DNA from: a virus
Reading direction: 5' to 3' (one strand)
Virus record (IMG/VR): IMGVR_UViG_3300050821_012852
Location: 1-24,185 of that record
DNA length: 24,185 nucleotides
Shown: positions 422-23,904 of the stretch, piece after piece
How the letters are laid out: each line of letters begins with the position of its first letter
Position numbering within the stretch: the stretch's first letter is position 1
Program-made: the position numbers and the translations under genes
The notes under the pieces: generated by a model
What the model was told of the DNA's origin: nothing
Database searches by the model: none
The model's input: the letters and a program-made list of their open reading frames with translations, nothing else

Positions 422-450
422 AGGATAGCCACGCTATACGTGTATGGCTA
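422..450 (-). promoter_or_regulatory. Candidate promoter with inverted repeat
   Basis: This lies in a 70-base gap and is unusually AT-rich for the window. On the minus strand TAGCCA (450-445) is followed after 17 bases by TATCCT (427-422), which has sigma-70-like spacing and resembles the TAGACG/TAnnnT pairs before the virion genes. The arms TAGCCA and TGGCTA (426-431 and 445-450) form an inverted repeat around a small ATAC/GTAT dyad. The site could therefore be an operator as well as a promoter. A start about 7 bases after TATCCT would give a leader of only about 8 bases for the 72-aa gene. Confidence 0.4.
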
Positions 451-477
451 GATCTTCTTGCGTGACCGTCTGGTGGC

Positions 478-1089
478 TCAACCGGGAGCGGATCGCGCCT
501 CGGCGACCTGGGCCTGGGTCTCGGCTATCCAGCGGTCGTACCACTGCCGGCGCAGGCCCTTGTTCCACATCCCGAAGCACTTGGTCAGCGTCTCGACCGC
601 GCGGTGGTGGTAGCGGCAGAGCGGGACCGCGGTCCGGTCGCAGGTCTTCCGCCGCTCCGGGTCTGGGTGCGCCAGGCCCTCGCCGGCGTGGTGCGGGTCG
701 CTCAGCCCCCCGCAGTTCCTGGGGTCCATCCAACGCGCGATGCAGGGTAGGGTCCTGACGACCGCTAGGTAAGCGGGGTCGTGGTGCTGGGCCCGGTCGC
801 GGGCGTGCCGGTCCATCGTCGCGCGGTAGTCGGCGCGCAGGGGCGACGGGGTTCGGTCTAGGACCGCGGGGCGGGGCAGGGACATCAGCGTCGTGCCGCC
901 GGCCCGGACCAGCGCCTCGCGCGCGGCCCAGCGCTCGACGTGATCGCGCTGGCGCGGCCGCCAGCGCATCACCACTTGGACGCTGGGGGGGCGCTCACCG
1001 ACCGCGGCCAGCTCGGCGCGCAGCCGCTCGGCGACCGACCGGTCAGCGTACGGGCCCACCGTCATCCTCCCGGCCCGGTGGTCGCACAC
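478..1089 (-). CDS. HNH-like nuclease, DUF968/YbcO-type
   Basis: A 203-residue protein. The C-terminal half carries spaced Cys and His residues typical of compact phage HNH nucleases: LPCIARW, a second Cys in RNCGG, a double His in DPHHAGEG, then KTCDRTAVPLCRYHHRAVE. This resembles the DUF968/YbcO group of prophage nucleases, which cut single-stranded or branched DNA. The N-terminal half is Arg-rich and unrecognised. The start is uncertain. The GTG used here gives 203 aa, and an ATG at 1065 gives 195 aa (MTVGPYAD) but has GGAGG directly against it, too close to act as a normal ribosome site. Both starts overlap the end of the upstream 61-aa gene. The nuclease activity is inferred from the metal-binding pattern only. 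Confidence 0.72.
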   Translation of the reverse strand: MCDHRAGRMTVGPYADRSVAERLRAELAAVGERPPSVQVVMRWRPRQRDHVERWAAREALVRAGGTTLMSLPRPAVLDRTPSPLRADYRATMDRHARDRAQHHDPAYLAVVRTLPCIARWMDPRNCGGLSDPHHAGEGLAHPDPERRKTCDRTAVPLCRYHHRAVETLTKCFGMWNKGLRRQWYDRWIAETQAQVAEARSAPG

Positions 1090-1228
1090 CCACGACGACG
1101 AGCCTCGCGGTTAGCCGCTCGGCCATCTTCTGCTCGAAGAACGTGCGCACTACCTGCTGGCGGTCCCGCCACTTCTGGTCGCGCGCGCGGCGACGCCGAC
1201 GCTGGCTGGCCTTCCCGTGCGCCATCAT
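1043..1228 (-). CDS. Small basic protein, 61 aa
   Basis: A 61-residue Arg-rich protein starting MMAHGKASQRRRRRARDQKW and continuing with a helical stretch (RQQVVRTFFEQKMAERLTAR). The ATG overlaps the TGA of the upstream zinc-finger gene, and GGGAGG sits 5 bases before it, a good ribosome site. The 3' end overlaps the start of the HNH-like gene. I recognise no domain. The strong positive charge suggests nucleic acid binding, but nothing more specific can be said. Its reality rests on the ribosome site and on the overlaps at both ends. Confidence 0.6.
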   Translation of the reverse strand: MMAHGKASQRRRRRARDQKWRDRQQVVRTFFEQKMAERLTARLVVVGVRPPGREDDGGPVR

Positions 1229-1995
1229 CCCGTCCTCCCGCGTCGCGCGGCAATGGCGTCGATGGCTTCGAACAACGCGCACACTTCGCCGGTCAGATAG
1301 TGCAGCGTGGCCCCATGGTTCTTGCCGTCCGATTCCCAGCGTTTGAGCTGCGCGTCCAGCTTGGCGTGTTTCTCTTTGAGCTGCTTCTCGCACGCTTCGT
1401 TCTCCGCGGCCCGGCCGGCGGCGATGCCTTCTTTGATGGCACGCCAGAAGTTGGGCCAGTTACCGCCGTTGGCGACACGGTCGTCCCAGCGTCTCAGTAA
1501 CTCGTTGGCGATTGCCTCGTCCCCGCCCGTCTCGGGTTGCGCCGCCTTCGGGTGGTCGCATCGGCCGTATCCTTTGGCAATGCAACGGTCACAGCGAACC
1601 GGCGGATGCGAGCCGAGCGTCTCGGGTTGCGCTGCTGGCTTCGACGTCAGGCACTTGTGAGCGGCGGAATGCTCAACGCAGGAATACTCGGCACATCCTG
1701 AGCACTGGAACGCCGCTGGTTTGTCAACGTCGTTCTCCATGCACAACTCACACGTTGTCGTGTCCGGACTGGTGCGGTTGATTGCGGCGGGGTTCTTACG
1801 GGCCAGTGCTACCGCCGGGCCGTCCATATGATTGCCGTCTTCGTAGATGGGCACTTGCATCCCCGTCTCCCCTTGCGGCGCCTTGGCGCGGGGGGGCTCG
1901 ATAAAGACGTGGGCTTTTGATGGTAAATAGTCCGCATGGTGCAGGCGCGCGACCCGGCAATCGGCCAACAAGCACCGGTCATCCTCGCGGCTCAT
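1225..1995 (-). CDS. B-box/AN1-like zinc-finger protein, 256 aa
   Basis: A 256-residue protein with a compact cross-brace zinc-finger pattern at residues 82-115: C-x2-C-x12-C-x2-C-x4-C-x2-H-x3-H-x-C. The spacing is close to B-box and AN1 fingers, which are best known from eukaryotic proteins, where they mediate protein contacts. A second small Cys/His cluster (C135, C138, C146, H148) follows. The two clusters lie between copies of the short repeat AAQPET. The C-terminal third (about 160-256) is a charged helical region with a coiled-coil look (ACEKQLKEKHAKLDAQLKRW). AAGGAG lies 7 bases before the ATG, which overlaps the stop of the XRE regulator (ATGA). The function is unknown. The finger suggests an adaptor or nucleic acid-binding role, which is inference. 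Confidence 0.75.
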   Translation of the reverse strand: MSREDDRCLLADCRVARLHHADYLPSKAHVFIEPPRAKAPQGETGMQVPIYEDGNHMDGPAVALARKNPAAINRTSPDTTTCELCMENDVDKPAAFQCSGCAEYSCVEHSAAHKCLTSKPAAQPETLGSHPPVRCDRCIAKGYGRCDHPKAAQPETGGDEAIANELLRRWDDRVANGGNWPNFWRAIKEGIAAGRAAENEACEKQLKEKHAKLDAQLKRWESDGKNHGATLHYLTGEVCALFEAIDAIAARRGRTG

Positions 1996-4739: not shown

Positions 4740-4755
4740 CGGGATATTACCCGGG
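4740..4755 (-). promoter_or_regulatory. 16-bp repeat, candidate operator (copy 1)
   Basis: The sequence CGGGATATTACCCGGG occurs here and again at 14206-14221, identical over 16 bases. It covers the stop codon of the 75-aa gene and lies about 44-59 bases before the HNH gene. On the minus strand it reads CCCGGGTAATATCCCG, a near-dyad around TAATAT. Related sites are GGTAATTACC at 6762-6771 and a shorter match at 12345-12356. It could be a regulator binding site or a minus-strand -10 element. Confidence 0.45.
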
Positions 4756-4974
4756 CAGGTCTGGGAACCAGGTCTGCCGGATGATTTCGACGCCGGCGGC
4801 GCTGACCTCCGTGGTGAGCCAGTGGCAGGTCCCGACGGTCTCGTAGACGACCTGGCAGATGTCGGGGAAGAGGTAGAGGTGGTCGCGCAGCCGGTCCTTG
4901 ATGAACCTCGCGAGAGCCCGGCGCATATGCTCCGCTACGACCTCGGGGGTGAACTTCGGTTCCCCCGCGCTCAT
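4747..4974 (-). CDS. Small protein of unknown function, 75 aa
   Basis: A 75-residue protein starting MSAGEPKFTPEVVAEHMRRA. It is predicted to be mostly helical, with a charged first helix (MRRALARFIKDRLRD) and a hydrophobic, Trp-containing end (GVEIIRQTWFPDLPG). I recognise no domain. The ATG at 4974 overlaps the stop of the HerA-like gene as ATGA and has GAGGAG upstream at workable spacing. A GTG at 4983 would be too close to that ribosome site. It may be a small partner of the ATPase, but only the coupling supports this. Confidence 0.65.
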   Translation of the reverse strand: MSAGEPKFTPEVVAEHMRRALARFIKDRLRDHLYLFPDICQVVYETVGTCHWLTTEVSAAGVEIIRQTWFPDLPG

Positions 4975-6734
4975 CGGAGCCACAGCTCCTCGACCGCGCG
5001 CAGCCGGTTACCCTGCGCGCGCTCGGCCAGGCCGTTGGCGGTCAGCTTCGACAGGTAGGTCGGGAATGTCCCGCCCTTGATCTCTAGCCTGGCGAAGTCG
5101 GCGAGCTCCGCCCTGGTCTTCGGCGTCCTCTCTGCCGCCAGCCACTCCAGCATGTCGGCGGCCTTCCCGGGGAGCTTCTCCCGCCACATGGCCAGCAGCT
5201 CGCGCGCGGTGGCGGGCTTGAGGACGTCGCCGGCGGCAGCGCGCCCGGCAGGCGTGAGACGCACCAGGCCGCCCTCGCGCGTGATGTAGCCCTGGACGCC
5301 GAGCCGGGACAGGTAAGTGGGGAACGACCCGCCGCTCGGCTTCATGACGGCCAGGGTCCCGAGCTGGCGGTAAGTCAGGGCCTTGGGATGGACCTCGGCA
5401 AGCGCGATGAGCATGCGGGTCGAGCCGTCATTCGGCGCGCGCGCGTCCTTTCGGGTGAACGCGCGCATGACCGCGGTGTCCCCCCGGTGGTCGCGCGGCA
5501 GGTCCTCGATCGAGAACCGCTTCCCGGGTGGGTTTGGGAGCGCGGTGTTGAGGCGCTGGATCTCGGCATCGAGGGTCGGCGCCGGATCGCCCGGTAAGAC
5601 ACCGATCGGGATCCCGGGCATCGTCTCGGTAGCATCCAGGGCGGCCTTGATGGTGCGCCACATTTCCCCGTGCTTGCGGGACGCCTCCTCGAAGGACCTC
5701 ATGCATCGGTCGAGGTTCTCGCGCGCGGTGTCGCGCTCGCGCTGGAGCTGGTACACCGCCTCGCCGGTGGCGCCCCCGGCGCTGATCAGGTTGCGTTGCA
5801 GCTCAGCGATCCGGGCGCGCAGGACCTTCGGGTCGTCGGTCTCCTTCTGGTCGGAGATCTTCCCCATCATCCCGCGGATCTTTTCCAGGTCGACCGGGGC
5901 GAGAGCGCGGACCTCCACGTCGTCCGGGTCGAACTCCTTGGGGCTCGCGCTGGTGTCCATGGTCCGCTTCGGGTGGAAGCGCGTCCTGACCATCATCCTG
6001 AGCCACTGGGGGGACCAGAGGTAGACCGTGCCGACGGGCAGGCTCGGGAGCTCCGCGAGCGCCTTCGCGTCCATGCCCTGGTCGGTCACCCAGCCAGCGA
6101 TCGTCTTGCGCTCATGCGGGCCCGTGAGCTGGCCGGTGACCAGGACCTCGGTCAGGTTGAGCGCCGACTTGCTCACCGCCTGGGGCCGCTGCGAGATGAG
6201 CGTCCCGCCGATCCCGAAGTTGCGCCCGACGCGCCAGAGGCGGAGGAACGCACCCAGCATGCGCTGCTCGCCGGGCATCGGGTTCTGCGGGACGAACTCC
6301 TGCGCCTCGTCGACGATCAGGTGCATGGGGGTCCGGTGGCGCTTCTTGAGCGAGTACAGGTGCTCCGCGAAGTCCGTGGCGAAGCGCCGCTGGTCGGCGC
6401 TGCTGAAGTCGGAGACATCTAGCACCACCGACTGCCGGCGCGCGGCGACCAGCTCCGCCACCAACTCGCCCGACCCGGGGGCCAGTGCGATGTCACCGCG
6501 CAGGCCCCCGAAGACTGGGATTGGGATGCCCCCCGGCCCGCCGGAGGCGTCCAGGCGCAGGCCGTACCAGACCCCGACGGGGTCGAGCACGACGACCTGG
6601 GCGCCGCCGTCGAGTAAGGTCTCAGCGAGTTTGCCGGCGTTGTACGTCTTGCCGGCGCCGCGCCGGGCTAGGAACGCGAACGTCTGCACCGGTGCATCCG
6701 CCGGCAGGTCTACGTCGGGAGCAAGCTGGAACAT
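4971..6734 (-). CDS. HerA/FtsK-like ATPase with two winged-helix domains
   Basis: A 587-residue protein. Residues 1-260 form a HerA-type motor: Walker A ARRGAGKT (23-30), VVVLDPVGVWYGL (48-59), Walker B MHLIVDEAQEFVP (137-149), and GRNFGIGGTLISQRPQAVSK (170-189), which matches the HerA sensor and arginine region. Such hexameric motors move along double-stranded DNA and in archaea work with a nuclease in end processing. Residues about 290-370 are a charged coiled-coil-like region. The C-terminus has two related winged-helix units, at about 441-502 and 528-587, sharing GGSFPTYLSRL and GGTFPTYLSKL. AGGAGA lies 8 bases before the ATG. The Cas4-like nuclease and the SMC-like ATPase upstream are possible partners. 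A packaging ATPase is less likely, because no terminase nuclease domain is present. Confidence 0.85.
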   Translation of the reverse strand: MFQLAPDVDLPADAPVQTFAFLARRGAGKTYNAGKLAETLLDGGAQVVVLDPVGVWYGLRLDASGGPGGIPIPVFGGLRGDIALAPGSGELVAELVAARRQSVVLDVSDFSSADQRRFATDFAEHLYSLKKRHRTPMHLIVDEAQEFVPQNPMPGEQRMLGAFLRLWRVGRNFGIGGTLISQRPQAVSKSALNLTEVLVTGQLTGPHERKTIAGWVTDQGMDAKALAELPSLPVGTVYLWSPQWLRMMVRTRFHPKRTMDTSASPKEFDPDDVEVRALAPVDLEKIRGMMGKISDQKETDDPKVLRARIAELQRNLISAGGATGEAVYQLQRERDTARENLDRCMRSFEEASRKHGEMWRTIKAALDATETMPGIPIGVLPGDPAPTLDAEIQRLNTALPNPPGKRFSIEDLPRDHRGDTAVMRAFTRKDARAPNDGSTRMLIALAEVHPKALTYRQLGTLAVMKPSGGSFPTYLSRLGVQGYITREGGLVRLTPAGRAAAGDVLKPATARELLAMWREKLPGKAADMLEWLAAERTPKTRAELADFARLEIKGGTFPTYLSKLTANGLAERAQGNRLRAVEELWLR

Positions 6735-6761: not shown

Positions 6762-6771
6762 GGTAATTACC
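6762..6771. promoter_or_regulatory. Perfect palindrome, candidate operator
   Basis: GGTAATTACC is a perfect 10-base palindrome 28-37 bases before the HerA-like start, inside the only sizeable gap of this block (6735-6833). Its half-site GGTAAT is shared with the repeats at 4740-4755 and 14206-14221. A dimeric helix-turn-helix regulator is the natural reader of such a site. A neighbouring TATTTACACGG on the minus strand makes the area AT-rich enough to hold a promoter, although I see no convincing -35/-10 pair. Confidence 0.4.
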
Positions 6772-12026: not shown

Positions 12027-12328
12027 GATGACGGCTCCGCTATGGGATCCGGCCGCATCGCCAGGACCGCGTCCCTGAGCAGCCAGACGTTCGACCCCGT
12101 CGGGGACCTGATCCAGGGTTTCCGATCGTCGCCGGGCGGTGACTTGAGCACGTCCCGCGCGACCCACCCGTAGATCGTCCCCCCGCGGACGCCGACGAGC
12201 TCCATCGCCTCGGCGGGTGAGATGTAGCCCGCCGAACGCATCCGCTCTTTCAGCTCGGCGGTCGTGTGGCGACCGCCGCCCCGGCTCTTGTTGCGGGCCG
12301 CGATCCTCTTCTTTGCTCGCTTCGTCAT
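12023..12328 (-). CDS. Helix-turn-helix protein, MerR/excisionase-like
   Basis: A 101-residue protein with a very basic N-terminus (MTKRAKKRIAARNKSRGGGR) and a winged helix-turn-helix of the MerR/excisionase type: GYISPAEAMELVGVRGGTIY, then GWVARDVLKSP and GSNVWLLRDAVLAM, where the wing ends. Proteins like this act as excisionases, small activators or packaging-associated DNA binders. CGGAGG lies 4-5 bases before the ATG, and the ATG overlaps the stop of the sigma-like gene. It is made together with the sigma-like protein and the nuclease. No integrase is visible in the window, so an excisionase role cannot be supported, and a transcription regulator is as likely. Confidence 0.75.
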   Translation of the reverse strand: MTKRAKKRIAARNKSRGGGRHTTAELKERMRSAGYISPAEAMELVGVRGGTIYGWVARDVLKSPPGDDRKPWIRSPTGSNVWLLRDAVLAMRPDPIAEPSS

Positions 12329-12993
12329 CGATCCTCCGTGGTCTGGTTTATTACCCGCCGCGCCGCCCGCGCTCCGTCATCCTGCCTGACTGCCGCCCCG
12401 AGCCGGCGCACGAGACCGGCGAGCGCCTTGCGCGGGATCCCGATCAGCCAGGACACGTCTTCCGGTTCCACCGGCGCTCCGTCCCATCCGAGGTGGGTCT
12501 CGATCGCGCGCCGCTCGCGCCGGTCGAGCGCGGCCAGGTGGGGCTCCAGCGCGCGCCGCAGCCGGACCCTGGCCGCCGCGCGCCGCCGCGCGCGCTCCCA
12601 CCCGTCGAGCCGCGCGTCTGGAGTATCCCCACCGGACAGCAGCATGACGCCACCGTCAGACCGGCGTCGGGGGCCGTGGTCGGCGATCTGGACGCGGTGC
12701 TGGAACTCCCGCGCGCGGGGCGACATGTTGACCGGGATGCGGACCGCCGCGAGCGCCAGGCTGGCCTTCACGCCCGCGCGCCGAGCCGCGGTCCTGTAGA
12801 GGTACCCGCGGACGTTCTTGCTCGGGTCGAGCTGCTTCTTCGCCATCGTCTCCACGACGTGGAGAGCGGCTTCTTGCGCGACGTCGTCCAGGTCCACCAC
12901 GAAGCCGCAGGCCCGGAACCGGCGGCGGACCGCCAGCGCGGTCAGGGTGGCCATCTGGACGACTGAGGTCGGGTCGTGAGATTGTCTCTGCAT
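12325..12993 (-). CDS. Sigma-70-family RNA polymerase sigma-like factor
   Basis: A 222-residue protein with the two-domain form of a group 4-like sigma factor. Region 2 is at about 20-80: FVVDLDDVAQEAALHVVETM followed by NVRGYLYRTAARRAG, matching the DAEDLVQE and P-R-AWLYRIARN segments of ECF sigmas. A Arg/Gly-rich linker follows, then a region 4-like helix-turn-helix at about 155-205 (LDRRERRAIETHLGWDGAPV, VSWLIGIPRKALAGLVRRLG). It would direct host RNA polymerase to phage promoters. The virion genes of this window have a recurring TAGACG/TAnnnT promoter pattern that it might read, which is inference. AAGGA lies 6-7 bases before the ATG. Match quality to region 4 is moderate, so a DNA-binding protein that is not a sigma factor remains possible. 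Confidence 0.72.
   Translation of the reverse strand: MQRQSHDPTSVVQMATLTALAVRRRFRACGFVVDLDDVAQEAALHVVETMAKKQLDPSKNVRGYLYRTAARRAGVKASLALAAVRIPVNMSPRAREFQHRVQIADHGPRRRSDGGVMLLSGGDTPDARLDGWERARRRAAARVRLRRALEPHLAALDRRERRAIETHLGWDGAPVEPEDVSWLIGIPRKALAGLVRRLGAAVRQDDGARAARRVINQTTEDR
12345..12356 (-). promoter_or_regulatory. Partial match to the GGGTAAT repeat
   Basis: On the minus strand GGGTAATAAACC lies inside the last codons of the sigma-like gene, 17 bases or more before the start of the helix-turn-helix gene. It shares the GGGTAATA core with the two 16-bp repeats at 4740 and 14206. It overlaps coding sequence, so it may be fortuitous. Confidence 0.25.
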
Positions 12994-13671: not shown

Positions 13672-14202
13672 TTACGCGCTGGTGACTACGCCGTAGTGGG
13701 CGATCAGGAGTGCGTCCACGCGCCCGGTCTTGAGACCGCCGCGCGGCCCGCGGATCAGCGCCGACGCCGCCGGGTACAGGCGCGCGGCGTGCGCCGCCTC
13801 GGCCGCGTCGTTGTTCTTGGCGACGTCGGCCAGGCAGACCTTCTTCCAGCGCTGTGGGGTTACCAGGGTGTGCTGCATCCCGAGCGCGGCCAGGATCCCC
13901 TGCCAGATACCGAAGCCCACGCCGAACGTAAACGAGCTGGCGACGCCCTGGTCCGGCATGCTGTGCACCTTCTCGAGGAATACGCGCGCGCCTTCCCCGT
14001 CGTAGGGCCTGAGGATCCCGAGCATCGCCTGGATGTCGTAGCTGCGTCCGGTCTTGGCCGCGAAGGCCGGGACGTCGTGGATGACGATGGCCCGACCTGT
14101 TTCTTTGAAGAGCTCCGACGGGCGGACGTCCGTCCTGCCGTCGATGATGGCGATCGCTCCGTCTAGCCCCGGGTCGATGCCGATGGTGACGTCTTGGTTC
14201 AT
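13672..14202 (-). CDS. RuvC-like Holliday junction resolvase
   Basis: A 176-residue RNase H-fold resolvase of the phage RuvC-like group. The first strand MNQDVTIGIDPGLDGAIAII carries catalytic D10. RVFLEKVHSMPDQGVASSFT carries E77 followed by the conserved segment before the helix GFGIWQGILAALG. TPQRWKK, and GRVDALLIAHYG near the C-terminus with D163, complete the acidic site. It would cut four-way junctions and branched replicated DNA before packaging. The ATG is preceded by no ribosome site; instead TAATAT lies exactly 7 bases upstream inside a GC-rich inverted repeat, as in a leaderless or very short leader start. The gene lies between the lysis enzyme and the 159-aa protein. The assignment is firm at family level. 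Confidence 0.9.
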   Translation of the reverse strand: MNQDVTIGIDPGLDGAIAIIDGRTDVRPSELFKETGRAIVIHDVPAFAAKTGRSYDIQAMLGILRPYDGEGARVFLEKVHSMPDQGVASSFTFGVGFGIWQGILAALGMQHTLVTPQRWKKVCLADVAKNNDAAEAAHAARLYPAASALIRGPRGGLKTGRVDALLIAHYGVVTSA

Positions 14203-14222
14203 CCCCGGGATATTACCCGGGG
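14203..14222 (-). promoter_or_regulatory. Inverted repeat with TAATAT before the RuvC-like start (repeat copy 2)
   Basis: CCCCGGG-ATATTA-CCCGGGG, a perfect 7-bp inverted repeat, fills the gap between the lysis gene stop and the RuvC-like ATG. It contains the second copy (14206-14221) of the 16-bp repeat found at 4740-4755. On the minus strand TAATAT is placed 7 bases before the ATG, the spacing expected for a -10 hexamer of a leaderless gene. No -35-like sequence is seen. It could be a promoter, an operator or both. Confidence 0.5.
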
Positions 14223-14223
14223 G

Positions 14224-14760
14224 CTACGAGACCGGCGCGGCCGACGCCGGGAGCGCGACCGCGTCGGCCAGGTCGACGTAGCCCATCAGGATGCCGCGCT
14301 TGCCGTCGAGCGGGTTCCAGGGCCCATGGCGCCAGACGCTGTCACCGTTGCGCGCGCCGTCGCGGTTCGTGTTGCCCTCGACCGTCGAGATCGTCCCGTC
14401 CGGGTAGGCGGTGTCCACGAAGCCGACGTGCCCCAGGCCGTGCCCGTGGTCCATCACGAAGATCGCGCCGCGCGCGGGGCTGGTCCTCCGGAACCGGGGC
14501 TCGGCAAGCTTGTAGACGTTCTGCGCGCCGACCGTGCGCGGGCAGGGGTTCGGCACCATCAGGACGTTCGAGGCGCGGCGGAAGCACCAGTACAGAAATG
14601 CAGCACACCAACTCTCGCCGGGCTCACCGCCGGCGGCAGCGAGATATAGCTCCACCTCCGGCCCGCGGTTCTGCCCGCCGCTCTCACGCACCCCGACCTG
14701 GGTGGTCGCGATCGCCAGCGCTGCCTCGGAGATCGTGTTCGCGCAGATGAGGTCGCTCAC
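14224..14760 (-). CDS. CHAP-domain endolysin
   Basis: A 178-residue single-domain cell-wall hydrolase. After a short helical start (ALAIATTQVGVRESGGQNRG), the CHAP/NlpC-type papain-like core shows the catalytic Cys in GESWCAAFLYWCF (C52), the catalytic His in GHGLGHVGFVDT (H111), and an acidic/polar third residue in ISTVEGNTN (E128 or N130). Such enzymes cut peptide or amide bonds in peptidoglycan at the end of infection, or as part of a virion for entry. No signal peptide or membrane anchor is seen, and no holin is recognisable nearby, so export is unexplained. The GTG start forms a GTGA overlap with the upstream 125-aa gene. That coupling to a likely virion gene leaves open a tail-associated lysin. 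Confidence 0.88.
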   Translation of the reverse strand: MSDLICANTISEAALAIATTQVGVRESGGQNRGPEVELYLAAAGGEPGESWCAAFLYWCFRRASNVLMVPNPCPRTVGAQNVYKLAEPRFRRTSPARGAIFVMDHGHGLGHVGFVDTAYPDGTISTVEGNTNRDGARNGDSVWRHGPWNPLDGKRGILMGYVDLADAVALPASAAPVS

Positions 14761-15134
14761 GTCTTGTTCCCCGCGATGATGTACTCGATCCGCCCGATCC
14801 CCGAGACGCTGAGCGCCGTCAGCTCGTCGCCGGCGTTCTTCGCCTTCAGCAAGAAGACGTCCGAGATCGGGATGAGCTGGTTCGCGCCGTTGGCCCAGGT
14901 CACCGACGCGACCAGCGACTCGCCGTCGACGGCGCGGATGACGACGTACCTGATCTTCGAGATCGCCCCGAGCGCCGGCGTGAAGTTGCCGGCGATCGGG
15001 ATGTTCCCGCCGAAGCTCCCGTCGTAGGTCTCCTTCGACGCGAGGTCGATCGACTGGGACAGGAGGGTCGTCGCGTCCGAGCTCGACGCCGGGTCCGACT
15101 GGACCGCCCCGGCCATCGTGAGCGTGAACGGCAT
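14757..15134 (-). CDS. Small probable virion protein, 125 aa
   Basis: A 125-residue protein starting MPFTLTMAGAVQSDPASSSD and predicted to be mostly beta strand (RYVVIRAVDGESLVASVTWA, LIPISDVFLLKAKNAGDELT, VSGIGRIEYIIAGNKT). Its Ser/Thr/Gly-rich composition and lack of charge fit a tail or fibre accessory protein. The ATG at 15134 is chosen because TATCAT lies 7 bases upstream and TAGACG 17 bases before that. A second in-frame ATG at 15143 would lie inside that TATCAT. There is no ribosome site. The stop overlaps the GTG of the lysis gene. No family recognised, so the virion role is from composition and position. Confidence 0.72.
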   Translation of the reverse strand: MPFTLTMAGAVQSDPASSSDATTLLSQSIDLASKETYDGSFGGNIPIAGNFTPALGAISKIRYVVIRAVDGESLVASVTWANGANQLIPISDVFLLKAKNAGDELTALSVSGIGRIEYIIAGNKT

Positions 15135-15141: not shown

Positions 15142-15170
15142 ATGATAGGGGGCCGGCCGGCGCGCGTCTA
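15142..15170 (-). promoter_or_regulatory. Leaderless-type promoter of the 125-aa gene
   Basis: On the minus strand TAGACG (15170-15165), a 17-base spacer, TATCAT (15147-15142), 7 bases and then ATG at 15134. TATCAT differs from TATAAT at one position, and TAGACG matches TTGACA at four of six. The first TAG is also the stop of the upstream gene. A perfect inverted repeat GGCCCCC/GGGGGCC (15135-15141 and 15148-15154) brackets the -10. No Shine-Dalgarno sequence is present. Confidence 0.6.
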
Positions 15171-15683
15171 CTCAGCCGCTTGCGGCGCGGCTTCCGGGGG
15201 CGGGGCGGGACTCGGGTCGGGAGCGGCGGGGACCTCGGCCTGGGCCTCGTCGACCGTGAGCGCGGTCCCCTCGGCTACCGGCTTCACTTCTTCGGGCGGC
15301 GGGAGCTCGTAGACGCCGACCTTCGCGTCCAGGAGCTTCTCCTCGATCCCGCCGAGGTTGAGCGTGTCGCGGAAGTCCATCTCGGCCAGCAGGTTCGCGA
15401 GCAGCACGTCGATCGACTCGACCGTCACCTCGAAAACGCCGCCCTTCGGGGCGTCGTCGGGCCGCATCTGGCCGCCGGCCTTCTTCACCCGGTGCCAGAC
15501 GTCGATGACGTCGATCTGGTCCAGTGCGACTCGAAAAGCTAGGCGCTGCTCGCGCGTCAGCTTCTTGCCGCTTGGCTTCTCGGCTTCCTTGACCAGGTAG
15601 AGGACCAGGTCCGACAGCTCGTAGGCCTCGAAGTGGATCTTCCTGGTCGGCCCCAGGTCGGCGCGTCGCTTGGCTTCTCCCAT
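15168..15683 (-). CDS. Conserved phage-type protein of unknown function, 171 aa
   Basis: A 171-residue protein beginning MGEAKRRADLG, an N-terminus that recurs in many small phage proteins. Residues about 15-110 are a mixed helical domain (FEAYELSDLVLYLVKEAEKP, KLTREQRLAFRVALDQIDVI, ESIDVLLANLLAEMDFRDTL). The rest is an acidic Pro/Ala/Glu-rich disordered tail (VPAAPDPSPAPPPEAAPQAA). There are no membrane segments. The ATG has no ribosome site, but TATTCT lies 7 bases upstream. The gene follows the giant fibre gene. In tailed phages a fibre assembly chaperone often takes that place, and a helical protein with an acidic tail would suit it, but this is inference only. Confidence 0.72.
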   Translation of the reverse strand: MGEAKRRADLGPTRKIHFEAYELSDLVLYLVKEAEKPSGKKLTREQRLAFRVALDQIDVIDVWHRVKKAGGQMRPDDAPKGGVFEVTVESIDVLLANLLAEMDFRDTLNLGGIEEKLLDAKVGVYELPPPEEVKPVAEGTALTVDEAQAEVPAAPDPSPAPPPEAAPQAAE

Positions 15684-15690: not shown

Positions 15691-15717
15691 AGAATAACAT
15701 CGGCCCGCCGGGATCAA
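15691..15717 (-). promoter_or_regulatory. Leaderless-type promoter of the 171-aa gene
   Basis: On the minus strand TTGATC (15717-15712) includes the stop of the fibre gene and is followed after 15 bases by TATTCT (15696-15691), then 7 bases and ATG at 15683. The spacing between the two hexamers is shorter than usual, so only the -10 is convincing. Arms TTCTCC and GGAGAA flank the ATG as a small inverted repeat. No Shine-Dalgarno sequence is seen. Confidence 0.45.
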
Positions 15718-18700
15718 GGCACCGAGAAGAGAGGCGTGACGCACTTCTGGCCGAGCGGCCCCCGCACGACCATGTAGCCGACCGGGGTCGTGCTGGCCCC
15801 CGCCGGGAGATTGACGATCGACCCACCGACGGCGCCGGTCGCCTCGAGCATCGCCGGCCCGCACTGGAAGGTCGCGTCCGTGCCCTTGATCCGGAACGTC
15901 TCGGTACCGTTGCCCAGGAAGCGCATGTCGCACGTGGAGCTGCCGATGTTGAGGTCGAAGTTGCGCGAGCTGCCGGTGAAGAGGACCCCCACACCGGTGT
16001 TGATCTCTATCGTGCCCGCGTTCGGTCCGGACGCGCTCGTGACCGTGAGGCCGTTCCCACCGACGGCGTCGATCAGGACGCCGCCGGCGCCGGTCACCTC
16101 CAAAAGGTTGCCCTTGAAGGTGATGCCCTGGTCGAACACTGCCGGGCCCTGGACCCAGAGGGACACGGCCCCGAGCGTGCCGTTGAACGATCCACCGCCG
16201 GTGATCGTCGGCGGCCCGCCGACGCAGAGGGTGGCGGCCGCGGGGACCGGGATGCCGCTGACGGTCCCCGCGCCGACGGACACGGTCGTGTTGTAGACGG
16301 GCGGCTGGATCGTGACCCAGTTGAACCCGGTCGCCGTCGTGACGTTCGCGCCGCCCGTGAGGTTGACCGTCGAGGTGTTGACGGCGACGTAGTCGAGGGT
16401 CGCGCCGGCCGAGCTGGAGACCGACACGTTGCCCGCGACGGCGAACATGGGGACTCCTCCCAGGAGCCCCGGCGTTCGCCCGACGCCGAACGGGTCGTTG
16501 CTCACGACGGCGCCGCGGTGCGCGCCGTCGGTCGTGCCCTGCAGGAACAGGACGCCGGCGGCCGTGGTGCTGCCGACGACCTTGTTCCGCACGACGACCT
16601 CGCCCGACGAGAGCAGGCGCATCGCCTCGGCCTGGGTCGCGCCCGTCTGCAGGGTGACGTCGCCGACCGACCCGAGGTAGAGCGGCCCGGCGACGTTGTT
16701 CATCACGAACGCGGTGTCAGCGTGCAGGTTGGGGACGGTGCCGAACGGCGTGAGGTTCGCCCCCGTGATGCCCGCGGCCAGCGCCTGGCCCGACCCGCTG
16801 TTGTTGGACGCGAAGAACTGCGCTCCGGCCGAGGTGCCCGCGCCGGTCGTGTTGACCGCGATCGTGGTGAACTGGTTCGCGCTGTTGGTGACCGTGACGT
16901 CGGTCCCCGGCGCGTTGGTCCCGACGCCGAGGCGCTTGTTCGTGGGGTCCCACACCAGGAGCGCGTCCTGCGCGAGCGTGCCGCCGGCGGCCGCCCCGAA
17001 CGTCAGCTCCTTCGCAGCCAAGGTCGCGACGCTGAGCTGGCCCGACGAGCTCGCGGCCTGCACGACGCCACCAGCCGAGAGGCTAGAGACGTTGACGAGG
17101 CCGCTGGCCAAGATCTGCAGCCGCGCCGCCTCGGTGGCGCCGGTGGCGAGGATCAGGGTCCCGGGCGCACCGACGTAGAGGTTCGACGACCCGAAGAAGG
17201 GGACCACGTAGGGGATGTTCGGTCCGACCAGGGGACGGTTCGTGGTCGCGGTGAACCCTGTACCCGCGACGCCGACCGCGACGCCGATGCCTCCGCCCGG
17301 GTTGTTGCTCGCCACGAACTGCGCGAGCGCGGCGACGCCCGCGCCGGCGTTCCGCACCATGACCTGGGTGGAACCGTTCGCGCTGTCGAGGACGTCGACG
17401 TCCGTCGTCGGGACGTTCGTGCCGATCCCGAGCCGGTTGTTGGTGTCGTTCCAGAAGAGGTTGGTCGCGTCCTGCGCGACGCTGCCGCCGGACGCACCGC
17501 CGAATAGGACCGCGCCCGCGGTGAGGGGACCGGCGGCGGGGACCAAGAAGTCCGTACCGGCGGTGGCGTTCGACAGCACGCCCGTCGTCACCGCGCTCTT
17601 GACCAGGCCGCCCGCCGTGAGGCTCAAGATGCTCACCGCACCCGCGGCGTCGATCTTCAGGCGCTCCGACTGCGTCGCGCCCGTCTGGAGCGTGATGACG
17701 CCGTGAGATCCGAGGTACAAGGTCGGCGTCGGTCCCGGGATAGACGTCGTCACGAAAGCCATGTTCGCGCCGAGGTTCGGGACCGTGCCGCCGGCAACGC
17801 GTGAAGGTCCCCCCATCCCGAACGTGACTGCGGCGGTCAGGTTAGTCGCCGCGAAACTCGCGAGCGCATTGGCCCCGGTGCTGGAATTCGTGATCAGGAC
17901 ACCCGTTGTCCCGTTGGTGTTGTTGAGGATCGCTAGGTCGACTGCTGGGATCTGTGACCCGATGCCGAGGCGCTTGTGGGTGTTGTCCCAGAACAGGTTC
18001 TGGTCCTGGTCGAGGAGGCCGCTGCCGCTCGCGTTGCCGAACGGGATCTGCCCGCCCACCACCGCGATCACGGTCGGCGCCGAGATGCTGCTGGTGACGA
18101 CCTGCTGGAGGACGCCCGACGCGAGCGTCCCCAGGTTGAAGGCCGAGGACCCGCCGGTGGTCACCATGCCGAGGGCGCCCCCGCCTCCGCCGCCGCTGCC
18201 GATCCCCAGCTTACCGGTGGTCGGGTCGGCGACGACGACGCCGCCCGCCGCGAGGGCCGAGATGAAGACGTTGCCGCTGGCGTCGATCCTCAGGCGCTCC
18301 GACTGCGTCGCGCCCGTCTGCATCGTGATGAAGCCGAAAGAGCCGAGGTACAGCGCCGGGCTGGGCCCGATCGTCGTCGTCAGGTAGGCCATGTTGGATC
18401 CGAGATTGGGCGTAGTTACGCCCGCGGAGATGCTCGTCCCCGTCATCCCGAACGTCGCCGTCGACGTGGCGTTGCTGGCGGTGAAGTTCGCCGACGAACC
18501 AGCTCCCGTCCCCGGGTTGCTCACCAGGACGCCGGCCCCAGTCGTCGAGGTGCGCGAGATGGCGATGTCGAAAGCGGGAGTGGTCGTGCCGATCCCGAGG
18601 CGCTTCAGCGTGTTGTCCCAGAAGAAGTCAGCGTTGTCCTGGGCCACCGCGCCGCCGGCGCCGGCGAACAGGACCGACCCGGTCGTCAGCGCCGTCGCGG

Positions 18701-21700
18701 GCGCGAGGTAGTCCGTGCCCGATACCCCGATCGACAGCTGCCCGCTAGAAGCAGCGGCCTTGACCATGCCGCCCGCGTTGAGGCTCGACAGGCTGACGTT
18801 GCCGGCGACGTCGATCTTCAGGCGCTCCGCCTTAACGGCGCCCGTCTGGAGAGAGATCGTCGTCCCCGCGCTGATGTAGAGGGGGAACCCGGCGATGGCG
18901 ATGAGGTAGCCCGTCGAGGGGCCGAGGTTGGGCTCAGGGCTTAGTGAGGTCCAACCCGAACTCGTGATCCCGAGGCCGACCGAAACGGCCGAATTCGTCG
19001 CGATGAACTCGGCGGTCGCGGCGGTCGCTGTGCTGAGGTTCTGGACGCGCACGCCGGTGGTGGCGTTCTGACTGCGGCTGACGGTCAGGTCATGCGTCGG
19101 TGTACTCGTCCCGATCCCGAGCCGGTTGCTCGTGTCATCCCAGAAGAAGCTCGCGTTGTCCTGCGCGATGTTCCCGCTGGCCCCGGCGAAGATCACCGAC
19201 CCAGTAGTCAGGCCCCCGACGGGCGGCCCGATGAAGTCAGTCCCCGAGACGGCGATCCCGAGCTGCCCGCCGACCGCCGCCTTGACCAGGCCGCCCGCCG
19301 CGAGGCTCGAGACCTGCACCTCTCCCGTGGTGAGGATCTTCAGCCGCTCCGCCTGCGTGGCGCCGGTCTGGAGAGAGATCGTGTTCTGAGAACCGATGTA
19401 CATCCCCAGCGTCGACACGGCCAAGAGGAAGGTCATCCCCGCCGTCAGGTTCGGAACTGCCGCGCTGAACGCTGAGGAGTTGAGCCCCATGGTCCCGAGG
19501 CGCGTCGCGTGCGAGCCGTTGGCCGTGGCGATCTGGGCGGCGGTGGGGCTGGTCGACGTGGACGAGTTGATCACGCGCACAGTGGAGTTGATCCCCGTGG
19601 TGGTGTTCGAGATGTCGAGCGTCGTACTCGGCGCATTCGTCCCGAGGCCCAGCCGGTTATTGGTGTCGTCCCAGAAGATATTCGCGTTGTCCTCGGCCAG
19701 GTGACCGGATGCGTTGGCGAACACCACCGAGCCCGGCGTGAGGGACACGGCCGCGCCGCCCACCGCGCCGAGGACGTCGTTCCAGTTGACCGCGCTGGTG
19801 CCGATGCCGCCGGCCGATCCGAGGTTCAGGATCGTTTGCCCGCGGTTGTCGTTGAGCGTGGTCCCCGCCGGCCCGACGACCACGTTGCCGGCCGTGTCGT
19901 CCCACTGCCGGGTCGCTAGCACGGACACGTTCGTCGTCCCGACGGTCCCCTGGGTAGTCGTGATCTGAGAAGCCCCGGCGCCGCCAGTCACGGTCGGGAC
20001 CTGCGCCAGGTCCAGTCGGCTCCCGCGACCCTGGAAGTTGACCAGCGTGTTGCTCGAGCCGATGGTGCCGTAGGTGTAGCCGGAGTTGATGATCCGGCCG
20101 CCCGAGATCCCCAGGAAGTTGATCGCGGGGTTGAGGTTGCCGAACGTCCCCGTCTGGTTGAACTCCATGTCGGCGGTCCCCTGCGAGCCACCGTTGATCG
20201 CGGTGATGACGCCATTCGCCTCGACCTGGAGGCCCTTGATGGTGCAGGTGGTGTTGAGGCGGAGCGACCCGGTGGCGACGATCAGGCGGTGGTACCCGCC
20301 CGTGACAGATCCGTAGCCGCCCGCCACCAGGAAGCTGGCCCCGGAGACGAGCCCGCTCACGCCGTTCTGGCAGTACAGGACTGACCCGGGCTCAGAGATC
20401 GCGTCGCCGAGGCAGTTGTAGAGGCTGAGGGCGCCGCCGTATACCAGGAACCGCCCCGACACCTTAAGGTCCGTAAGTTGGAGGACGCCGACGTTGCTTA
20501 CGAAGTTGCTGCCCAGGTTGGGCACGTCGTAGACGGTGATCGCGTCCCCGTTCGCCCATGTGACCGGGAGGCCAGCTGGCGTGATCGGCTGGCTGATCCA
20601 GGCCTGCTTGGCGCCCATGTCCTGCACCACGCGCGCGGTGCTGAGGTCAGACGTTCTCCGCACGACCAGGTTCAAGAAGGAGGTCGTCCCATCACCGAGC
20701 GTCCAGCTGGTCGTGATGCCGGAGCTCTTGATCAGCGTGGGCTGGCTCGTCGCCCCGTTGCGCGCCACGACGCCGCCCGAGAGGTCGAGGGTCCCCGAGT
20801 ACAGCACGCGCTGGACGCCGACGTAGTGCGGGGAGAAGTTGGAGAAGGTCAGGTCGGGGGACGTCAGGAAATACGGCTGCACCGTATCGCCCGCGTTCAG
20901 GTCCCCGGCGATCGTGATGGTCTGGTTGAGAGACGGCTGCGCGCCCCAGAGTCGGAGGTGGACCTCGCTCAGGCTCCGGAGCTGGTGGGTACCGTCGACG
21001 CCGGTGTTGTCGTCGTTCGCCGTGCCGCTGGTGTTGGCCGGGTCGACGAAGAACGCGGCCTGCGAGGCCCAGAACCGATCCACGATCCGCATGCGGACCC
21101 AGCGGCCGACGCCGCCGAGCGCTGCGAAGTACAGGAAGTTGTCGACCGTCGCCGTGCTGGTGCGGTCGAGGTAGACGAAGTCGCGCCGCGACTTGAGCCG
21201 CGCCACCACCGTCCCGGTCGCTGGGAAGGCGAGCGTGTTGAGCGGCACCGCCCCGGTCGTGGCGCCGTCCGCCTCGAGCAGGGCCACCGCGCCGGCGCCG
21301 AGCGCCGTGTAGGCGCTGCCGTTCTGGCTGACTTCGAACTGCTGGGTGACCTCGTTGTAGCGGAAGCGCCCGGTGCTCGCGGCGCTGACCGCGACCGCCG
21401 ACCCGGCGCCCATCGCCAGCGCGGCCGCGGTCGGGCCGGCGGCGCCGATGCCGACGCCGAAGTCGGTCCGCATGCCGCCGGTGCCTGGGAACGTCGCGAT
21501 CGTGACCGGGCCCGTCCGGTTGATCAGGTTCAGGACGTCGGTGATGTTCTCCAGTGAGATCGCCGCGCCGCCGGTCCGGTCGAGGCGTAGGCCGGGGCTC
21601 GCGCTCTTGACGTGCAGCTCCTCGAGCGGCGCCGCGATCCCGACGCCGACGTTGCCGGTCGCGCGGTCGACGACGAGCGGTCCGCCCGACGCGGTGTTCA

Positions 21701-22340
21701 CCCGCAGCGCGGAGGCGCCCGTGAAGCCGCCGGACGACCCGTCGATGACGACGCCGCCGCCGTTGCCGTCGTTGAGCAGGAGCGTCTGGTCGACGGCGCC
21801 GACGCCGACCGCGTAGGCGCCGGCCAGCGTCTCAACGACGCCGCCGCCGAGCGCGATCGCCCGGACGATCTCGTGCCATCGGTTCTCCGGGGCCGCGTAG
21901 CCCTGGCGACAGTTCGGGTTCGACGTGTCCTCGAGCGCCTCGAAACCGCCCGGTTTGCGGAGGGGTAGCGCGCCGCTGGGGCCGGGGATCGTCAGGCCCG
22001 AGAGCCGCGCCACGGCGCAGGTCTTCCGCACCTGGCCGGGGCTGCCCGGGTTGATCGTCGCGCGGACCAGGTACGTCCCGTCCTTGTGCACGGCGCCGCT
22101 GTCGGAGTCGACGACGAATGAGGAAGTCGTGGCGGTCGCCAGCACCACGGGTTCGGGACCGGCGCCGCCCGCGGCGGAAAACTCCGGGCGGCCCAGCAGC
22201 TCCCAAAGTACCGACGTGACGCCGACCGTGCTGGTCAAGGAGAGGCCGACGGTCTCTCCCGCGAGTAGGTCCTGCCGGAAACCGGTGACCGCGGTCGCCC
22301 CGTTCCGCGTTGAGACGATTTGGACGGACTCGAACGCCAT
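15714..22340 (-). CDS. Giant tail-fibre protein with six tandem repeats, 2,208 aa
   Basis: A very long Gly/Ala/Thr/Ser-rich protein with hardly any charged clusters, typical of phage fibres. Residues about 1-130 form an Ig-like beta domain (VTSVLWELLGRPEFSAAGG, DGTYLVRATINPGSPGQ). A fibre motif NVGVGIAAPLEELHV is at about 229. Residues 350-830 look like an irregular beta-helix. From about 870 to 1,960 there are six repeats of 167-209 residues, each with a pattern like FWDDTNNRLGIGT-x2-P, LQTGATQ-ERLKI and SSLAAGGxVKA. Residues 1,960-2,208 form a distinct C-terminal part, probably the receptor-binding tip. LGIGT-P fibre repeats are common in phages of environmental bacteria. There is no ribosome site; TACCAT lies 6 bases before the ATG. 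A virion location is secure by type; the receptor is unknown. Confidence 0.88.
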   Translation of the reverse strand: MAFESVQIVSTRNGATAVTGFRQDLLAGETVGLSLTSTVGVTSVLWELLGRPEFSAAGGAGPEPVVLATATTSSFVVDSDSGAVHKDGTYLVRATINPGSPGQVRKTCAVARLSGLTIPGPSGALPLRKPGGFEALEDTSNPNCRQGYAAPENRWHEIVRAIALGGGVVETLAGAYAVGVGAVDQTLLLNDGNGGGVVIDGSSGGFTGASALRVNTASGGPLVVDRATGNVGVGIAAPLEELHVKSASPGLRLDRTGGAAISLENITDVLNLINRTGPVTIATFPGTGGMRTDFGVGIGAAGPTAAALAMGAGSAVAVSAASTGRFRYNEVTQQFEVSQNGSAYTALGAGAVALLEADGATTGAVPLNTLAFPATGTVVARLKSRRDFVYLDRTSTATVDNFLYFAALGGVGRWVRMRIVDRFWASQAAFFVDPANTSGTANDDNTGVDGTHQLRSLSEVHLRLWGAQPSLNQTITIAGDLNAGDTVQPYFLTSPDLTFSNFSPHYVGVQRVLYSGTLDLSGGVVARNGATSQPTLIKSSGITTSWTLGDGTTSFLNLVVRRTSDLSTARVVQDMGAKQAWISQPITPAGLPVTWANGDAITVYDVPNLGSNFVSNVGVLQLTDLKVSGRFLVYGGALSLYNCLGDAISEPGSVLYCQNGVSGLVSGASFLVAGGYGSVTGGYHRLIVATGSLRLNTTCTIKGLQVEANGVITAINGGSQGTADMEFNQTGTFGNLNPAINFLGISGGRIINSGYTYGTIGSSNTLVNFQGRGSRLDLAQVPTVTGGAGASQITTTQGTVGTTNVSVLATRQWDDTAGNVVVGPAGTTLNDNRGQTILNLGSAGGIGTSAVNWNDVLGAVGGAAVSLTPGSVVFANASGHLAEDNANIFWDDTNNRLGLGTNAPSTTLDISNTTTGINSTVRVINSSTSTSPTAAQIATANGSHATRLGTMGLNSSAFSAAVPNLTAGMTFLLAVSTLGMYIGSQNTISLQTGATQAERLKILTTGEVQVSSLAAGGLVKAAVGGQLGIAVSGTDFIGPPVGGLTTGSVIFAGASGNIAQDNASFFWDDTSNRLGIGTSTPTHDLTVSRSQNATTGVRVQNLSTATAATAEFIATNSAVSVGLGITSSGWTSLSPEPNLGPSTGYLIAIAGFPLYISAGTTISLQTGAVKAERLKIDVAGNVSLSSLNAGGMVKAAASSGQLSIGVSGTDYLAPATALTTGSVLFAGAGGAVAQDNADFFWDNTLKRLGIGTTTPAFDIAISRTSTTGAGVLVSNPGTGAGSSANFTASNATSTATFGMTGTSISAGVTTPNLGSNMAYLTTTIGPSPALYLGSFGFITMQTGATQSERLRIDASGNVFISALAAGGVVVADPTTGKLGIGSGGGGGGALGMVTTGGSSAFNLGTLASGVLQQVVTSSISAPTVIAVVGGQIPFGNASGSGLLDQDQNLFWDNTHKRLGIGSQIPAVDLAILNNTNGTTGVLITNSSTGANALASFAATNLTAAVTFGMGGPSRVAGGTVPNLGANMAFVTTSIPGPTPTLYLGSHGVITLQTGATQSERLKIDAAGAVSILSLTAGGLVKSAVTTGVLSNATAGTDFLVPAAGPLTAGAVLFGGASGGSVAQDATNLFWNDTNNRLGIGTNVPTTDVDVLDSANGSTQVMVRNAGAGVAALAQFVASNNPGGGIGVAVGVAGTGFTATTNRPLVGPNIPYVVPFFGSSNLYVGAPGTLILATGATEAARLQILASGLVNVSSLSAGGVVQAASSSGQLSVATLAAKELTFGAAAGGTLAQDALLVWDPTNKRLGVGTNAPGTDVTVTNSANQFTTIAVNTTGAGTSAGAQFFASNNSGSGQALAAGITGANLTPFGTVPNLHADTAFVMNNVAGPLYLGSVGDVTLQTGATQAEAMRLLSSGEVVVRNKVVGSTTAAGVLFLQGTTDGAHRGAVVSNDPFGVGRTPGLLGGVPMFAVAGNVSVSSSAGATLDYVAVNTSTVNLTGGANVTTATGFNWVTIQPPVYNTTVSVGAGTVSGIPVPAAATLCVGGPPTITGGGSFNGTLGAVSLWVQGPAVFDQGITFKGNLLEVTGAGGVLIDAVGGNGLTVTSASGPNAGTIEINTGVGVLFTGSSRNFDLNIGSSTCDMRFLGNGTETFRIKGTDATFQCGPAMLEATGAVGGSIVNLPAGASTTPVGYMVVRGPLGQKCVTPLFSVP
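16600..19740 (-). repeat. Six tandem repeats inside the fibre gene
   Basis: Six imperfect copies, each about 500-630 bases, encode the block beginning GSVLFAGASG and containing FWDDTNNRLGIGT. The Trp of that motif lies near 19672, 19139, 18617, 17989, 17452 and 16950. The fourth copy is longest because a Gly-rich insertion (GIGSGGGGGGALGM, near 18190) precedes it. The copies differ in sequence throughout but keep FW, LGIGT, TGAT and ERLKI, so they are old duplications, possibly kept variable by recombination among them. Confidence 0.85.
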
Positions 22341-22346: not shown

Positions 22347-22375
22347 ATGGTATGAGGGGTGGTGTCAGGCGTCTA
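22347..22375 (-). promoter_or_regulatory. Leaderless-type promoter of the fibre gene
   Basis: On the minus strand TAGACG (22375-22370), a 17-base spacer, TACCAT (22352-22347), 6 bases and ATG at 22340. The TAGACG hexamer is identical to those before the 125-aa and 493-aa genes. No Shine-Dalgarno sequence lies between TACCAT and the ATG; the six bases are CGGGGG. The gap between the two genes is only 46 bases and is filled by this arrangement. Confidence 0.6.
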
Positions 22376-22386
22376 GAGACCCGGTC

Positions 22387-23868
22387 CTAGCGCACGATCC
22401 CGGACAGCTTGGTGACGCCGTGGTCGTAGGCCTGGATCGACATCGTGACGACGTCGCCGGCCGCCAGGCCCTGCCCCGTCTGCCATACCGTGGCGTTGGC
22501 CGGGTTGAAGAAGAACGGCGCCGTCCGCGCGTTGGATCCAGAGCTGTTGTTCTTCACGAAGCAGAGCGCGTTCACCAGGGTCGGCGATCCCAGCGACAGC
22601 GGCACGCCGCCTCCATCGCCGCGGTCGAGCGCCAGGATCGCGGTGGCGGAAGTGGAGACCGCCGAGACGCCGACGTCGATGAAGGCGCGCGTCGACACGG
22701 CCGGCTTGGACCCGGGGACGCCGAACGACTCCGCGCCCGTGATCGTCTTCGTCAACGACGTGTTCTCCGCGGCGCCCAGGATGTAGGTCATGTCCTCCGA
22801 CATGACGCAGGCGTGCCGGCGCGTCGTCCCCGCGCGGACGAACCCGATCCCGATGTAGACGGCGCCGGAGATCGTCGTGGTGCCGCGCGGCGTGGTGATC
22901 GCGGAGCTGGGCTGCCCCAGGTTGTTTGGCGCGACGAGGCTCTCAACTACGGCGACCGGGGCCATGCCACCGCCGGAGAGCGCCGTCCCTTGGGGCGCGT
23001 GGCGTCCGCCGCACAGGTAGATGTAGTACGGCTTGTCGGTCGCGCCCGCGGCGATGCTGAACGGGTTGTTCGCCGTGTCCTGCGAGACGGGGACGCCGAA
23101 GAGGGCGCTGGCGTCGAGGATCTCACCGTCGATCAGGACGAGGCTGGACGGCCCCGTCATCGTGAGGCCGGACGACGTCGTCGTGGGGTCGACGGTGCAG
23201 TCCCAGGTCAGTCGGCACCCGCTGAGGATCCCGCTCATCCGCGACCACGGGAACTCCGCGCGCCGAGAGAGCCGCGGGCAGGGGCCGAACGAAGACGCGG
23301 TTGGCGCGGCAGCCGGGACGAGCACCTCGAACAGCGCGCACTTGCCGGAGGGGACCGCGGGCGGCACCGGCGTTCCGGCCGGCGTCCCGGTGACTACGGT
23401 GATGATCGCCGCCGGGCCGCTGGTCTTGAAGACGCTCTGCGCAGCGATGGTGCGGGTCGATGGGTCGACCAAGATGTTCCTCGAGACGAGGTCGGTGTCA
23501 GCGCTCGCCGGCTGCGCCACCACGAGGTCGATGCGCGGGTTCGTCCCGTCCGGCGTCGCGAACGAGAGCGCGGGGACCGACCGCCAGCGGAGCACCTCGA
23601 AGGGCGAATCGTCGACCGTCAGACTCGGGTCCGTCGGGAAGTAGAAGAACGCGTCCCCGTCGGCCAGGGCCATCTGGAACCCCGACGTGAACGTCAGCGC
23701 CAGCGCGCTCAGCGCGCAGCTGAACGGGACGCCGACTGGGTCGGCGCTGCCCGCGGCGAGTACGTTCTGGAGCTCGCGTGACCAGAGCTGGTAGCTCCGG
23801 TTCTCGTCGCTCGACAGAGCGGTTTCCCGAGCGTTGATCTTCTCGCGGCTGAACGGCACTCCACCCAT
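22387..23868 (-). CDS. Probable tail or baseplate protein, 493 aa
   Basis: A 493-residue protein starting MGGVPFSREKINARETALSS. The first 60 residues are helical (SYQLWSRELQNVLAAGSADP). The rest is beta-rich with low charge and frequent Gly, Ser, Thr and Pro, for example GFQMALADGDAFFYFPTDPS and TNPRIDLVVAQPAS. The last part (about 380-493) repeats short beta elements (AILALDRGDGGGVPLSLG). A helical N-terminus for attachment and a long beta body suit a baseplate or fibre-base protein next to the giant fibre. A segment such as DKPYYIYLCGGRHA plus several Cys residues is unusual for fibres. No family recognised. The ATG has no ribosome site; TAGCCT is 6 bases upstream. Confidence 0.8.
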   Translation of the reverse strand: MGGVPFSREKINARETALSSDENRSYQLWSRELQNVLAAGSADPVGVPFSCALSALALTFTSGFQMALADGDAFFYFPTDPSLTVDDSPFEVLRWRSVPALSFATPDGTNPRIDLVVAQPASADTDLVSRNILVDPSTRTIAAQSVFKTSGPAAIITVVTGTPAGTPVPPAVPSGKCALFEVLVPAAAPTASSFGPCPRLSRRAEFPWSRMSGILSGCRLTWDCTVDPTTTSSGLTMTGPSSLVLIDGEILDASALFGVPVSQDTANNPFSIAAGATDKPYYIYLCGGRHAPQGTALSGGGMAPVAVVESLVAPNNLGQPSSAITTPRGTTTISGAVYIGIGFVRAGTTRRHACVMSEDMTYILGAAENTSLTKTITGAESFGVPGSKPAVSTRAFIDVGVSAVSTSATAILALDRGDGGGVPLSLGSPTLVNALCFVKNNSSGSNARTAPFFFNPANATVWQTGQGLAAGDVVTMSIQAYDHGVTKLSGIVR

Positions 23869-23874
23869 ACCGCG

Positions 23875-23904
23875 AGGCTACCGCGGTTGCCGCAGGCGCG
23901 TCTA
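23875..23904 (-). promoter_or_regulatory. Leaderless-type promoter of the 493-aa gene
   Basis: On the minus strand TAGACG (23904-23899), an 18-base spacer, TAGCCT (23880-23875), 6 bases and ATG at 23868. An inverted repeat ACCGCG/CGCGGT (23881-23886 region and 23869-23874) surrounds the -10. The -35 hexamer and the ATG distance agree with the fibre and 125-aa promoters; the -10 is the weakest of the set. Confidence 0.5.

Follow-up and report, generated by a model that had tools for sequence, protein, structure and literature searches.

A shared TAGACG −35 hexamer and ATG-proximal −10 boxes point to probable leaderless, co-regulated expression of three late-region genes in a phage of probable myxobacterial hosts

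Leaderless expression has been described in both bacteria and phages. Most middle and late messenger RNAs (mRNAs) of phiYS40, a phage of Thermus, are leaderless, as stated in a review (PMC3594737). A genome survey (Zheng et al. 2011, PMC3160421) reports leaderless genes in 8 of 33 delta-Proteobacteria genomes, and describes TANNNT leaderless genes in which the first T of the box precedes the start by about 12 nucleotides (nt). Here we analyze an entire IMG/VR virus record, IMGVR_UViG_3300050821_012852 (24185 bases, 69% GC; hereafter the window), whose recognizable genes lie on the minus strand. Likewise, five start codons in it are preceded by TAnnnT, with 12, 12, 13, 13, and 13 nt from the first T to the start; in contrast to the surveyed genes, these belong to a phage, and three of them have a TAGACG −35 hexamer in common. 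We consider it probable that these three genes, which start at 23868, 22340, and 15134, have their own compact sigma-70-type promoters that give leaderless, co-regulated, and probably late mRNA, read by the host polymerase.

All five boxes lie on the minus strand, 6–7 nt ahead of their ATGs, as a first-pass annotation of this DNA had reported. TAGCCT (23875..23880) and TACCAT (22347..22352) are each 6 nt ahead of the ATGs at 23868 and 22340, while TATTCT (15691..15696), TATCAT (15142..15147), and TAATAT (14210..14215) are each 7 nt ahead of those at 15683, 15134, and 14202. Also as reported, three of the five have TAGACG as a candidate −35 upstream on the same strand (23899..23904 for the 23868 gene, 22370..22375 for 22340, and 15165..15170 for 15134), with spacers of 18, 17, and 17 nt; the TATTCT of 15683 is not accompanied by TAGACG. 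The three TAGACG-paired −10 boxes have a C at position 4 in common, and a C directly follows TAGACG at all three sites. The minus strand of the window contains three instances of TAGACG-N16-19-TAnnnT, each before one of the ATGs at 23868, 22340, and 15134, and the plus strand contains none; for TAGACG-N17/18-TAnnnT, a mean of 0.025 is expected from 40 order-2 Markov sequences. The same hexamer pairs at random positions, which the annotation had named as grounds for giving up its proposal, were not seen in the 24 kb searched, where pairs lie only ahead of the three ATGs. TAnnnT at 6–7 nt was found at 5 of 24 start positions, which were of our own choosing and include one (3592) that is not a start codon, compared with a mean of 0.18 and a maximum of 3 when the upstream stretches were dinucleotide-shuffled 3000 times; none of these shuffles contained the full TAGACG/TAnnnT pair.

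The statement that these five starts have no Shine–Dalgarno (SD) sequence also held, with an SD-like string at 0 of 5, compared with 13 of 18 other starts (one-sided Fisher 0.0075; 4 of the 13 strings are only 4 bases long). Judged from the sequence, the three TAGACG genes are likely to be expressed from leaderless mRNA. A looser copy of the promoter had been proposed near 407, but its TATCCT and that ATG are 14 nt apart instead of 6–7, so this member has to be dropped. A GTG 6 nt from the same TATCCT was rejected, as it is in another frame and opens 12 codons only.

The description of these as virion genes is a fair label for the region. The 23868 gene (22387..23868, minus strand) encodes a 493-residue protein with weak local matches, about 40 residues long, to minor tail and virion structural families (E 1.7e-6 and 6.5e-6), and the 22340 gene (15714..22340, minus strand) a 2208-residue protein that contains internal repeats, each about 170 codons long. 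However, the 171-residue product of the 15683 gene (15168..15683, minus strand) and the 125-residue product of the 15134 gene (14757..15134, minus strand) match no family, and the 14202 gene (13672..14202, minus strand) is not a virion gene, as it encodes a RuvC-like Holliday-junction resolvase (phrog_1770, E 4.5e-29). Gene 49 of phage T4 likewise encodes a Holliday resolvase. The proposed division into two gene classes survives at the sequence level, with TAGACG before late-region genes and a separate GGTAAT box (discussed below), but 14202 belongs with the latter and 15683 is without TAGACG. With two members moved or removed, the observation is real.

The hosts of this phage are probably myxobacterial, to judge from its SSB (6834-7304), which is closest to myxobacterial SSBs: the best nine genome matches, among 67 loci in all, comprise seven Myxococcales/Myxococcota and two “Proteobacteria”. 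In the 18 genomes reached via SSB loci (16 with myxobacterial titles and 2 with “Proteobacteria”), TTGAC-N18/19-TAnnnT-N6/7-ATG has 131 matches, compared with 15 for the reversed pattern (hand sum). TAnnnT peaks at 6–8 nt before candidate ATGs, with counts at the three positions of 4, 8, and 10 in genome G011 and 12, 14, and 4 in genome G015 (400 kb each), against a background at 13–45 nt of about 0.6 and 2.4 per position, respectively (averages by hand). Such a TAnnnT precedes 22 of 226 open reading frames (ORFs) in G011 and 30 of 282 in G015. Given this enrichment in myxobacterial genomes and the myxobacterial-like SSB, leaderless expression in the phage is plausible and would be largely of the host type. 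The leaderless reading in the first-pass annotation is supported to this extent, by the ATG-placed spacing, the lack of an SD string, and the TAnnnT enrichment in the probable host clade.

The shared −35 hexamer is what sets the three genes apart. Among 46 host leaderless candidates, two have an identical −35 hexamer at a pairwise frequency of 0.001, and random fives drawn from the 46 gave a triple match in 0 of 200000 draws. Since three identical −35 hexamers are present in the phage and such identity is rare among host candidates, co-regulation is indicated. Five myxobacterial loci (L126–L130), found among 11 inspected of the 98 TAGACG matches in genomes, have TAGACG-N18-TACCAT 6 nt before the ATG of one type of secreted-protein gene; TAGACG is therefore tolerated in the myxobacterial clade. 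We infer that TAGACG-N17/18-TAnCnT sets the start of the RNA on the ATG or at most one or two bases away, and that the leaderless mRNA would be translated without an SD site, in a mode that a minority of the genes of the probable myxobacterial host appear to use as well. The CHAP-domain endolysin gene (14224..14760, minus strand) begins with a GTG that overlaps the 15134 stop codon and would be coupled behind the 15134 gene. The common −35, not being enriched in the host clade, would mark 23868, 22340, and 15134 as one co-regulated class, probably late, and the promoters could be read by host RNA polymerase with either a host sigma factor or a sigma-like protein of the phage (12325-12993).

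A number of points weigh against this interpretation. The evidence is that of the sequence; the sites number three, within one fragment, and no close relative was found in which the conservation of the boxes could be tested. The host assignment rests on one gene. The clade shows no enrichment of the full TAGACG pattern (5 matches vs. 13 for the reversed pattern in the 18 genomes), with 98 matches vs. about 160 reversed across 377 genomes, and TAGACG-N16-19-TAnnnT has 10 vs. 20 reversed in 18 virus records (hand sums). TTGAC at 15–20 nt was present at none of the sampled G011 and G015 sites, and most host leaderless sites seem to be without a TTGAC −35. In the Myxococcus phage Mx8, no TAnnnT was seen at 5–8 nt in 85 annotated starts. 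In the window itself, TAnnnT-N6/7-ATG occurs seven times on the minus strand, two of these inside ORFs (23991 and 9649); the plus strand has a single occurrence, and 0.85 are expected per strand. TAGACG alone is also in excess, with five copies on the minus strand, where 1.9 are expected, and eight on the plus strand, and the TAG of the copy before 15134 is the stop codon of the preceding 15683 gene. These last two features, the excess on both strands and the stop codon, are what might be seen if the pattern were a product of chance in GC-rich DNA, in which short gaps, stop codons, and TAGACG-prone codons combine to yield it. The both-strand control and the shuffles oppose this explanation, and we regard it as very improbable.

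The −10 boxes at three starts lie in the loops of perfect inverted repeats, the 3′ arm of which abuts the ATG: 7 base pairs (bp) at 15134 (arms 15148-15154 and 15135-15141), 7 bp at 14202 (arms 14216-14222 and 14203-14209, with TAATAT in the loop), and 6 bp at 23868 (arms 23882-23887 and 23869-23874). Stems of this size arose in 8 of 20000 trials in which the flanks were shuffled around a fixed TAnnnT, and a stem of at least 6 bp was found in 0 of 63 host leaderless candidates. The letters of the arms differ between the sites, while the pairing is kept, and the gaps between the genes concerned measure 21–46 nt. These features could reflect a timing device, in which read-through RNA is shut by the ATG-abutting hairpin and has no SD site, and in which promoter-born RNA, having neither arm, would be open to leaderless translation. 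Similar logic is described for the T4 genes e, soc, 49, and I-TevI (PMC3014915, PMC2988022), where a structure at the start site forms on long transcripts and is missing from late-promoter RNA; in T4 the SD and/or the AUG is hidden and the late RNA is leadered, whereas the present phage has its −10 in the loop and lacks an SD. However, the stem at 22340 has only 4 bp and there is no perfect stem at 15683, and folding of the 26-nt segments is clearly better than that of shuffles only at 15134 (−16.9, z −2.1) and 14202 (−15.4, z −2.5), compared with −9.6 at 23868 (z −0.3), −6.5 at 22340 (z −0.6), and −4.2 at 15683 (z +1.0). Furthermore, 6 of the 46 host sites also fold at −9 or better, the difference in accessibility has a p of 0.055, the other fetched loci are not enriched for hairpins (16 vs. 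15 and 5 vs. 4 controls), and the test was designed after the sites had been seen. We consider the timing device unlikely; it supplements the leaderless promoter interpretation and does not replace it.

The same inverted repeats, in which GC arms flank an AT core, could alternatively be operators or RNA–protein sites, in which case the hexamers would not be promoters. This applies particularly to 14202. A 16-nt sequence, CCCGGGTAATATCCCG, which contains the TAATAT of 14202, is common to the leaders of the 14202 and 4696 genes, with the second copy at 4740-4755. All four minus-strand copies of its GGTAAT box (14206-14221, 12345-12356, 6762-6771, and 4740-4755) lie in the leaders of the DNA-metabolism or regulator genes at 14202, 12328, 6734, and 4696. 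Of these, the 12328, 6734, and 4696 genes have SD strings, so that the 14202 box reappears ahead of an SD-led gene, and the copy at 6762-6771, GGTAATTACC, is a perfect 10-bp palindrome. The phage also encodes two helix–turn–helix proteins, at 12023-12328 and 1992-2207. For the TAGACG sites, by contrast, the arms have no common sequence, and the TAGACG 17–18 nt upstream would be left unaccounted for. As a general explanation the operator hypothesis appears distinctly unlikely to us; it is more likely to fit the 14202 box than the other sites. The 14202 box fits better among the GGTAAT copies, which could be operators or mark a second class of promoter.

If the three TAGACG sites are promoters, which sigma factor might read them? 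A divergent protein of 222 residues encoded at 12325..12993 on the minus strand resembles the sigma-70 family, with every score under the curated cut-offs: 22.2 bits for Pfam Sigma70_r2 (cut-off 24, E 1.3e-4) is slightly below the threshold, and 22.5 bits for the NCBIfam sigma70-ECF model TIGR02937 (cut-off 42.9, E 6.9e-5) far below it. In structural comparisons of a single-sequence model of the whole protein (predicted local distance difference test, pLDDT, 67), sigma factors account for 45 of the 50 chains in the list, and the scores are weak (best E 0.098). Residues 1–75 give fold matches with Z up to 6.2, mostly to sigma chains, and for residues 121–222, modeled likewise (pLDDT 72), 50 chains were listed, of which one or two are something other than sigma factors (best E 0.6). 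No Pfam match to sigma region 4 was obtained, and a sequence search of solved structures returned nothing sigma-like. A search of viral_contigs, phages, and 282 genomes of the phylum gave no relative, an empty answer that is uninformative for this search. The protein is thus an unproven candidate for the reader of the TAGACG promoters. An extended version, in which the TAGACG promoters are read by the phage sigma and hold their −10 within the loop of the ATG-abutting hairpin, so that promoter, timer, and leaderless start form one element of about 36 bases, is in our estimation a rather improbable one. Upstream of the sigma-like gene, the gap between the 13566 and 12993 genes (12994-13086) holds a very stable GC-rich hairpin, the gap folding at −42 kcal/mol, with a T-rich run after it on the plus strand only.

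For the 23868 protein, no relative was found in viral_contigs or phages; the 22340 protein has repeat-level matches in four viral loci, and none in phages. Four virus records (G019, G020, G405, and G406) have one to three window proteins in common with the phage. Inspection of G019, G020, and G405, and of the middle 21.6 kb of G406, showed no late class of the TAGACG type. The HerA/terminase-like ATPase (4971-6734, minus strand) has relatives at 38–48% identity in two virus records. Near position 4027 on the plus strand of G020 (locus L113), TTGACA and TACCGT, the latter 7 nt before an ATG, resemble one host-type leaderless promoter. In viral_contigs, a tightened 14-base pattern occurs in at least 119 stretches, with no late gene in common among the matches listed; among these, 33 of 119 open at least 60 codons, compared with 22% of all ATGs there, which is uninformative. 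At the right end of the window, a truncated ORF (23914-24185, minus strand), Gly/Ala-rich with a Cys-rich end, differs from the surrounding phage genes, and a search gave no confirmed relative for it.

Should the leaderless interpretation hold, the phage would sort its genes by translation mode besides promoter, with promoter and start packed within about 36 bases, and a phage of probable myxobacterial hosts would possess a late regulon together with a candidate sigma factor. Among the titles and abstract openings searched, a scope that leaves out most subscription papers, none was found to deal with leaderless promoters in phages of myxobacteria. In T4, gp55 is described as a late sigma that defines a promoter class, as the 222-residue candidate could do here; the gp55 promoters are TATAAATA, whereas the candidate class of the present phage has TAGACG. 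For Cluster O mycobacteriophages, a report (PMC4351075) describes a few predicted SigA-like promoters at which the +1 coincides with the initial base of the start codon, whereas in the present phage the arrangement is repeated before several late-region genes. The likeness to phiYS40 (PMC3594737) lies in leaderless middle and late phage mRNA, with a possible preference over leadered mRNA; that system, as the review presents it, was measured, with shifts in IF2/IF3, whereas the present phage has another host and is known from its sequence. Because leaderless middle and late phage mRNA is already known from phiYS40, the present case represents a variant rather than a new kind. If the interpretation holds, it would carry leaderless late expression beyond the Thermus and mycobacterial phages found in print.

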